Source: Blastopirellula retiformator (GTDB taxonomy: Bacteria > Planctomycetota > Planctomycetia > Pirellulales > Pirellulaceae). From it: DNA of 64,000 nucleotides. The notes beneath the pieces were generated by a model, which had not been told where the DNA came from, did no database searches, and worked only from the letters and a program-made list of their open reading frames with translations. The position numbers were made by a program, and so were the translations under genes. Positions 12,658 to 14,361 of this stretch are shown piece after piece (position 1 is the stretch's first letter; each line of letters opens with the position of its first letter). The stretch lies in the NCBI RefSeq assembly GCF_007859755.1, contig NZ_SJPF01000001.1, positions 918,082 to 982,081 on the forward strand, written 5' to 3'.

Positions 12658-13488
12658 ATGCTCGACCTGTTCGACAAAATCGAAGAAGCGGTCGCCGCCA
12701 TTCGCAAAAAGTGGGACAAAGTTCCAGCGGCCGGCATTATTTTGGGCACTGGTTTGGGCGGCCTGGTCGAAGAGATCGAGATTGAAGCGTCGCTGGAATA
12801 CGAGGAAATTCCGAATTTCCCGACGTCGACGGCGATTAGCCATCGCGGCCGACTCGTCTACGGGATGCTGAATGGCCTGCCGGTTGTGGCGATGGAAGGC
12901 CGCTTCCATATGTACGAGGGCTATTCGCTGAAGCAAATCACCCTGCCGGTCCGCGTGATGAAGGCGCTGGGCGCCGAGCTGCTGGTCTGCTCCAACGCCT
13001 CTGGCGGGATGAACCCGTACTTCAATTGCGGCGACATCATGGTGATCGAAGATCAGATCAACCTGCTGGGGGACAACCCGCTGATCGGGATCAATGACGA
13101 TCGCTTGGGCCCGCGGTTCCCCGACATGTGCGAACCGTACGACCTGAAGCTGGTCGACATGGCGCTCGAAATCGCCCGCGCTGAAAACATCGTCGCCCAC
13201 AAGGGCGTTTTCGTCGCGGTCGCCGGGCCGAACCTGGAAACCCGCGCCGAGTATCGTTTCCTGCGTCAGATCGGCGCCGATGCGGTCGGCATGTCGACCG
13301 TGCCGGAAGTGATCGTCGCGGTCCACTGCGGCATGAAGGTGGTGGCGCTGTCGATCATTACCGACATGTGCCTGCCCGACGCGCTGAAGCCGGCCAACGT
13401 CGAAGAGATCATCGCCACCGCCAACGAGGCGCAGCCGCGGCTTTGCACGCTGGTCAAGGGAGTTTTGGCGCGCGTCCAAGCGGGCTAG
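12658..13488 (+). CDS. punA: Purine nucleoside phosphorylase, first paralogue (Asp at the base-specificity position)
   Basis: This 276-residue trimeric-type (family II) PNP splits purine nucleosides with phosphate. Conserved parts are the phosphate loop GTGLGGL (30-36), EGRFHMYEGYS with His84, SNASGGMNP (112-120), Glu194 in GPNLETRAEY and GMSTVPEVIVA. Where the human-type enzyme has Asn243 (ITN), this protein has Asp236 (IITD). In family studies Asp at this site favours 6-amino purines such as adenosine, so specificity may be altered (inference). The start at 12658 follows GAGGA by 7 nt; a GTG at 12610 opens the frame earlier but lacks homology. A second paralogue follows about 50 bp downstream. 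Confidence 0.93.
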   Translation: MLDLFDKIEEAVAAIRKKWDKVPAAGIILGTGLGGLVEEIEIEASLEYEEIPNFPTSTAISHRGRLVYGMLNGLPVVAMEGRFHMYEGYSLKQITLPVRVMKALGAELLVCSNASGGMNPYFNCGDIMVIEDQINLLGDNPLIGINDDRLGPRFPDMCEPYDLKLVDMALEIARAENIVAHKGVFVAVAGPNLETRAEYRFLRQIGADAVGMSTVPEVIVAVHCGMKVVALSIITDMCLPDALKPANVEEIIATANEAQPRLCTLVKGVLARVQAG

Positions 13489-13536
13489 TAACGTCACGTC
13501 GACGCTGTGATCGGTAGGCTGAGGGAGAGGCCAAGC

Positions 13537-14361
13537 TTGTTTCGACTGTCTGTGGAAGTGGAAGAAACCGCCGCCGCGGTTCGTCGCCGTTGGAACCGGC
13601 GTCCCAAGGCGGGCATCATCCTGGGGACCGGGCTCGGCAGTCTGACCGATGGCATCGACGTCGAGGCCTCGATCGCCTATGACGATCTACCATACTTCCC
13701 GCAAGCGACCGCGCTCAGCCATGCCGGTCGCTTGATTTGCGGCAAGCTGGGAGGCGTCGACGTCTTGGTGATGGAAGGCCGCTTCCATCTCTACGAAGGG
13801 TATTCGCTCGACCAGATCACGCTGCCGGTCCGCGTGATGCAAGAGTTGGGCGCTCAGCTGCTGGTCGTCAGCAACGCCTCCGGCGGGATGAACCCGTACT
13901 ATCACTCGGGCGACATCATGCTGATGGAAGACCATATCAACATGATGTGGCGCAGTCCGCTGGTGGGTCACACCGACGAAGGGAAACTGGCCGAGCGGTT
14001 CCCCGACATGTCGTCTCCCTACGATCGTCGGCTGCTGAAGCTGGCGGCCAAAGTCGCCCGGCGAGAGTCAATCCGCTTCCACCAAGGGGTGTACGTGGCG
14101 ATGAGCGGCCCGAACTACGAAACCCGAGCCGAGTACCGATTCTTACGGCAGATCGGCGGCGACGTCGTCGGCATGTCGACCGTGCCGGAGGTAATCGTCG
14201 CGCGGCAATGCGGACTGCAGGTATTAGCCTTGTCGACGGTCACCAACATCTGCCTGCCCGACGACCTGGGCCGGGTCGGCAAGTACGACGTGATCAATGC
14301 GGCGAAGGCGGCCGAGCCAAAACTGCGTCGCATTGTGCGAGAAGTGATCCGCGAAGCTTAA
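13537..14361 (+). CDS. punA: Purine nucleoside phosphorylase, second paralogue (Asn at the base-specificity position)
   Basis: This 274-residue paralogue is collinear with the preceding gene and shares GTGLGSL, EGRFHLYEGYS, SNASGGMNP, GPNYETRAEY and GMSTVPEVIVA. It keeps the canonical Asn237 (TVTN), expected to bind 6-oxo purines (inosine, guanosine). I place the start at TTG 13537. GGGAGAGG lies about 6 nt upstream, and the protein then aligns residue for residue with its neighbour from the first codon. A GTG at 13507 would add 10 residues with no counterpart. The pair probably arose by tandem duplication and is co-transcribed. Confidence 0.92.
   Translation: MFRLSVEVEETAAAVRRRWNRRPKAGIILGTGLGSLTDGIDVEASIAYDDLPYFPQATALSHAGRLICGKLGGVDVLVMEGRFHLYEGYSLDQITLPVRVMQELGAQLLVVSNASGGMNPYYHSGDIMLMEDHINMMWRSPLVGHTDEGKLAERFPDMSSPYDRRLLKLAAKVARRESIRFHQGVYVAMSGPNYETRAEYRFLRQIGGDVVGMSTVPEVIVARQCGLQVLALSTVTNICLPDDLGRVGKYDVINAAKAAEPKLRRIVREVIREA

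Follow-up and report, generated by a model that had tools for sequence, protein, structure and literature searches.

Within the window, i.e., the whole stretch of 64,000 nucleotides of Blastopirellula retiformator DNA that we analyzed, two genes for trimeric-type purine nucleoside phosphorylases (PNPs) lie in tandem on the plus strand. The genes, the codons of interest and a signal between the two reading frames are found at the following positions.

12658..13488, plus strand: gene 1, Asp-type phosphorylase; ATG start, 276 amino acids; one of 153 planctomycete Asp-type rows in our alignment; proposed 5'-methylthioadenosine (MTA)/adenosine phosphorylase
13234..13239, plus strand: codons Leu193-Glu194 of gene 1, columns of human PNP Phe200-Glu201
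13363..13365, plus strand: codon Asp236 of gene 1, column of human PNP Asn243
13399..13401, plus strand: codon Val248 of gene 1, column of human PNP His257 (the 5'-hydroxyl contact in human PNP)
13521..13530, plus strand: probable ribosome-binding element of gene 2, GAGGGAGAGG, kept in four genus members
13537..14361, plus strand: gene 2, Asn-type phosphorylase; 274 amino acids from TTG, 284 if started at GTG 13507; proposed 6-oxopurine nucleoside phosphorylase
14245..14247, plus strand: codon Asn237 of gene 2 (TTG numbering), column of human PNP Asn243

The two proteins share 57% identity across 273 aligned residues, and both exceed the cut-offs of the trimeric-type PNP models NF006054 (gene 1, 366.7 bits; gene 2, 347.9 bits; cut-off 218) and TIGR01697 (300.3 bits for each; cut-off 197.1). 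Both also score above the cut-off of TIGR01700, the model for PNP I, inosine and guanosine-specific (316.8 and 305.6 bits; cut-off 293.35), and fall below that of TIGR01694, the model for MTA phosphorylase (MTAP; 72.6 and 90.2 bits; cut-off 274.85). The NCBI models class gene 1 as an inosine/guanosine PNP, not as an MTAP. The predicted structure of its product (pLDDT 92.0) finds its best structural match in PDB entry 4M1E (Z 43.0, rmsd 1.4, 273 aligned residues); this model confirms the fold only, which is that of a trimeric PNP.

Gene 2 most likely starts at TTG 13537 and not at GTG 13507, since the GAGGGAGAGG element is found before the TTG codon in all four genus members compared (the window, L034, L035 and L107) and the GTG codon is absent from L034; the numbering of Asn237 in the earlier note on this DNA fits this start. 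On each side of the pair, the nearest long reading frame in a mechanical ORF list lies on the minus strand. The suggestion that the two genes reside within one operon thus holds as far as a two-gene, same-strand unit between minus-strand reading frames. In two genus members, an inverted repeat is located between the two PNP genes (L035:1987-2082 and L107 from 2341); it resembles a small repeat or mobile element, and its arm has no match in the window when up to three mismatches are allowed.

We located residues 193-250 of human PNP in PDB chains and aligned them with both genes. In this alignment, the counterpart of human Asn243 is Asp236 in gene 1, which therefore lacks the Asn, and Asn237 (Asn247 if GTG 13507 is the start) in gene 2, which possesses it; the Glu201 column holds Glu in both genes (Glu194 in gene 1). 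Together with the model scores, the alignment bears out what had been read from the letters alone, namely tandem PNP paralogues that differ by Asp236 and Asn237 at the position of human Asn243, with the Asp at the base-binding position. Among 287 planctomycete rows, the Asn243 column contains Asp in 153 and Asn in 128 (gap, 2; ambiguous, 1; other residues, 3), and these counts show that the split is not a matter of chance. The human Phe200 column is Leu in each of the 153 Asp rows, all of which carry Leu-Glu at columns 200-201; its occupants in the 128 Asn rows are Tyr (112), Phe (12), Leu (3) and Met (1).

The Asn243Asp substitution in human PNP is reported to open the enzyme to adenosine, with gains of about 5,000-fold in kcat and about 4,000-fold in efficiency (PMC6128611), as the earlier note had stated. 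Its statement that MTAP employs Asp at this site agrees with all 12 MTAPs that we read; these enzymes carry Ser at the Glu201 column (12/12). MTAP resembles gene 1 in the Asp at the Asn243 column and in the Val, Leu or Ile at the His257 column, and differs from it by Ser in place of Glu194 and by the score of gene 1 under the TIGR01694 cut-off. Human PNP, in turn, shares with gene 1 the fold and Glu201 and differs from it at Asn243 and His257, where gene 1 has Asp and Val.

Thermus thermophilus HB27 is reported to possess a PNP I that acts on 6-oxopurine nucleosides only and a PNP II that acts on adenosine only (PMC11430614). PNP II is described as the product of gene TT_RS00985 and as a 179 kDa hexamer (PMC8073115), and two PNPs have been listed for T. 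thermophilus, one of them the COG0005 member TTC0194 (PMC1274311). From gene numbering, mass and family, we infer that TT_RS00985, TTC0194 and PDB entry 6TK9 are one and the same, so that one Asp-bearing member of the family, T. thermophilus PNP II, appears to be adenosine-specific. The 6TK9 protein belongs to the same family as gene 1, is 50% identical to it and likewise has Asp at the Asn243 column; unlike gene 1, it carries Ala at the Glu201 column and Glu at the 257 column. A review of methionine salvage, which does not mention planctomycetes in its main text, also names T. thermophilus as a case in which guanine phosphorylase and adenosine phosphorylase are differentiated (PMC6302742). 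The PNP of Bacteroides fragilis (8SWT), on the other hand, combines Asp with Glu201 as gene 1 does, yet was crystallized with Immucillin H, an inosine-type inhibitor; Asp alone therefore does not set specificity, and 6-oxo activity of gene 1 is possible. A further relative is PNP I of Planctomyces limnophilus (4M1E), which is 55% identical to gene 1 and shares its Leu-Glu-Asp residues, with Leu in the 257 column. No activity report for this enzyme was found in the literature that we searched, nor did that literature hold anything bearing on this question for planctomycete PNPs or MTA phosphorylases.

A second change in the pocket concerns the column of human His257, a residue that, in human PNP, binds the group standing for the 5'-hydroxyl in an inhibitor (PMC3214022); the 5' site of MTAP is described as hydrophobic and without hydrogen-bond partners (PMC5147791). 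In the 153 planctomycete Asp types, this column is occupied by Val (91), Ile (40), Leu (18) or other residues (4), i.e., by Val, Ile or Leu in 149 of them, and the 12 MTAPs have Val (8), Leu (3) or Ile (1). Of the PunA-like Asn types, 51 of 60 have His; in planctomycete Asn types that resemble gene 2 (78 rows), the column holds His or Gly (24 each), Ala (19), Lys (8) or Pro (3). Single rows may be misplaced in all these counts, as the loop preceding the column varies in length. Asp types read from other phyla retain His in 14/14 Bacillota and 8/9 Bacteroidota, and those of the Thermaceae have Glu. Val248 of gene 1 is accordingly a hydrophobic residue at the 5' site, matching the feature described for MTAP, and the counts at both columns mean that the gene 1 group joins an MTAP-like base residue with an MTAP-like 5' residue. 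The earlier note missed this second change, as well as the mutual exclusion with MTAP described below.

The split between Asp and Asn types is old and conserved. We assigned the genomes compared to the Planctomycetota, and the family of the window to the Pirellulaceae, from named relatives (L232, L245 and L258) that have these sequences and the tandem pair in common with them. In the family to which the window belongs, 94 of the 100 genomes sampled gave a PNP-family match, and 63 of the 71 genomes read, including that of the window, contain a single Asp copy and a single Asn copy; the other eight comprise Asp only (4), Asp together with a row truncated ahead of the column (2), an ambiguous base plus Asn (1), and Asn only (1). 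The Asp gene comes first in 56/56 same-strand two-gene loci in which both residues could be read, among them three from named planctomycete records; three further planctomycete two-gene loci could not be classed and are left out of this count. In genomes outside this family, the Asp type more often occurs by itself or has a PunA-like Asn type as its partner at another site. A tree with MTAP and PNP, as the earlier note had proposed, was built from 163 rows after exclusion of human columns 200, 201, 242 and 243, and it placed the Asp rows between two groups of Asn rows. For the AU test, we removed five MTAP and 13 long rows and drew 81 of the remaining 145 (39 Asn, 42 Asp); a tree holding all Asn rows together, i.e., a single Asp/Asn change, was rejected (p 0.00086). 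The Asn of gene 2 and that of the PunA-type enzymes are therefore not one unbroken state. Rooting on MTAP proved unusable and was dropped, and we make no claim about the ancestral residue, because the outgroup sits on a very long branch that joins the tree at long Asn-type rows.

The genome of the window possesses mtnA, the gene for the salvage step that follows MTA phosphorolysis (454.7 bits; cut-off 279), and has no MTAP over the cut-off, no DeoD match and no adenosine deaminase match. Three genes in it match PF01048 at E <= 0.001. The third of these (L003:1315-2160) is closest to HpnG, a hopanoid-associated phosphorylase (104.7 bits, under the cut-off of 187.1), and reaches 41.6 bits with the MTA/SAH nucleosidase model, under the cut-off of 73.8. 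The routes from MTA given in the salvage review are MtnP, or MtnN plus MtnK (PMC6302742). We rejected the nucleosidase route: mtnK, which provides the other path to methylthioribose-1-phosphate, has no match in the genome of the window and exceeds its cut-off in none of 78 genomes of the phylum (weaker matches in 7). mtnA is over its cut-off in 73 of these 78 genomes. Among 65 genomes of the class, the corresponding numbers are 62 for mtnA, 11 for adenosine deaminase and 0 for DeoD (16 weaker matches). In genus g76, nine genomes have an adenosine deaminase (G135, G151, G217, G236, G241, G268, G296, G331 and G335); each has a single PNP-family match, which is an Asp type in all eight sequences read (G335 is unread).

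Counting MTAP as matches over the cut-off and Asp types as read from sequence, we found MTAP only in 21 of the 78 genomes, the Asp type only in 46, both in 0 and neither in 11 (Fisher, 2.4e-11); PNP matches are unread in G109, G111, G121 and G144, and only that of G121 could break the exclusion. Counted by family, MTAP occurs in 14, the Asp type in 26, both in 0 and neither in 4 (2.7e-8). Both p-values overstate the number of independent events, because the genomes are related. As a control, Asn types do not avoid MTAP: they are present in 12/21 MTAP genomes versus 27/57 others (p 0.61), or 24/57 without G108, G122 and G166, each of which has an MTAP-like protein as its sole Asn row (p 0.31). 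Within the family of the window, MTAP exceeds the cut-off in 1 of 100 genomes, and that genome has 9% contamination. The Asp-type genomes G108, G122 and G172 also encode an MTAP-like protein that stays under the cut-off and carries Asn. Of the 11 genomes with neither enzyme, 4 lack mtnA and 7 possess it (G119, G138, G153, G123, G168, G160 and G166).

On these grounds, we regard it as probable that the locus is a conserved two-gene unit with divided substrates, in which gene 1 would encode an MTA/adenosine phosphorylase that replaces MTAP and gene 2 an inosine/guanosine phosphorylase. The change at the His257 column and the exclusion of MTAP make MTA the likely physiological substrate of gene 1. 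With Leu193, Glu194, Asp236 and Val248 in its pocket, the enzyme would phosphorolyze 6-aminopurine nucleosides, physiologically mainly MTA and perhaps also adenosine and 5'-deoxyadenosine; it would release adenine and pass methylthioribose-1-phosphate on to MtnA, thereby standing in for the absent MTAP. Asp236 is predicted to pair with N7 and the 6-amino group. Val248 would offer no partner to a 5'-hydroxyl and may thereby leave room for the methylthio group. Gene 2, with Asn237, would carry out the usual phosphorolysis of inosine and guanosine. We infer these substrates and hydrogen-bond roles from the observed sequences, alignment, conservation, gene order, MTAP exclusion and presence of mtnA.

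The earlier note had suggested that the pair may cover 6-amino and 6-oxo nucleosides, an idea that is probably right in outline, given the conserved split and the adenosine-only PNP II of T. thermophilus, but that misses the likely main substrate; nor is the Asp decisive by itself, as the B. fragilis enzyme shows. In the strict version of this idea, gene 1 would act as an adenosine phosphorylase and gene 2 would serve inosine and guanosine, with no role for MTA. We consider this unlikely: the effect of Asn243Asp in human PNP, the example of T. thermophilus, the lack of an adenosine deaminase or DeoD match in the genome of the window, and the retention of the Asp type in four genomes without mtnA (G128, G343, G351 and G359) all agree with it, yet it leaves both the hydrophobic residue at the His257 column and the exclusion of MTAP unexplained, and in the one genus where nine genomes have an adenosine deaminase, the Asp type is kept in 8/8 read.

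The change at the His257 column and the MTAP exclusion would be equally unaccounted for if gene 1 broadly accepted both 6-oxo and 6-amino nucleosides, with gene 2 as a specialized or redundant copy. The presence of Glu201 in both genes and the crystallization of the B. fragilis Asp enzyme with Immucillin H fit such a role, and no Asn type was read in 25 of the 46 Asp-type genomes (G109, G111 and G144, with unread matches, are among the 25), so that the Asp type may do everything there; retention of the Asp/Asn pair in 63 of the 71 family genomes argues in the opposite direction, and we judge this explanation distinctly unlikely. That the residue difference is mere drift between two inosine/guanosine phosphorylases of the ordinary kind, as the name of the NCBI model implies and as the scores of both genes above the TIGR01700 cut-off would allow, is highly improbable, since planctomycete rows with Asp have Leu at column 200 in 153/153 cases and Val, Ile or Leu at column 257 in 149/153, and since the Asp/Asn pairing is conserved.

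Several points count against the assignment of gene 1 as an MTA/adenosine phosphorylase. Its predicted pocket keeps Glu201, versus Ser in MTAP and Ala in Thermus; there are, moreover, Asp types without mtnA, mtnA genomes with neither enzyme, MTAP-like proteins under the cut-off, and the flanks of the genes. Nine Asp-type loci, six from outside the Planctomycetota and three planctomycete, were inspected for their neighbors: among 20 chosen flanking ORFs within about 2 kb, there was no methionine-salvage gene, and DivIVA was found at five loci and a class I tRNA synthetase at three. This neighborhood neither helps nor hurts the MTA reading.

The Leu-Glu-Asp-Val/Ile pocket also occurs in Eisenbacteria, Zixibacteria, Longimicrobiales and Ignavibacteria, with one or two sequences read from each. 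We see an even chance that methionine salvage in many Planctomycetota, and perhaps in these four groups, has as its MTA phosphorylase an enzyme annotated as an inosine/guanosine PNP; MTAP would then be replaced by a non-orthologous enzyme from within the PNP family, marked by two pocket residues. If so, a gap in methionine and polyamine salvage would be filled across much of a large phylum, the curated model name of TIGR01700 (inosine and guanosine-specific) would cover enzymes of another specificity, and the pairs would offer natural material for residue-by-residue tests of base and 5' specificity.

Tandem pairs of Asn and Asp types are also present in Bacillota, in the opposite order: in 12/12 two-gene loci (L209-L214, L216, L217, L222, L246, L272 and L274; 14 Bacillota Asp types were read), a PunA-like Asn type comes first and the Asp type second. 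The division of labor may therefore have arisen more than once. At the Glu201 column, these 12 Bacillota Asp types carry Met or Leu, with a single Glu among them, and they keep His at column 257.
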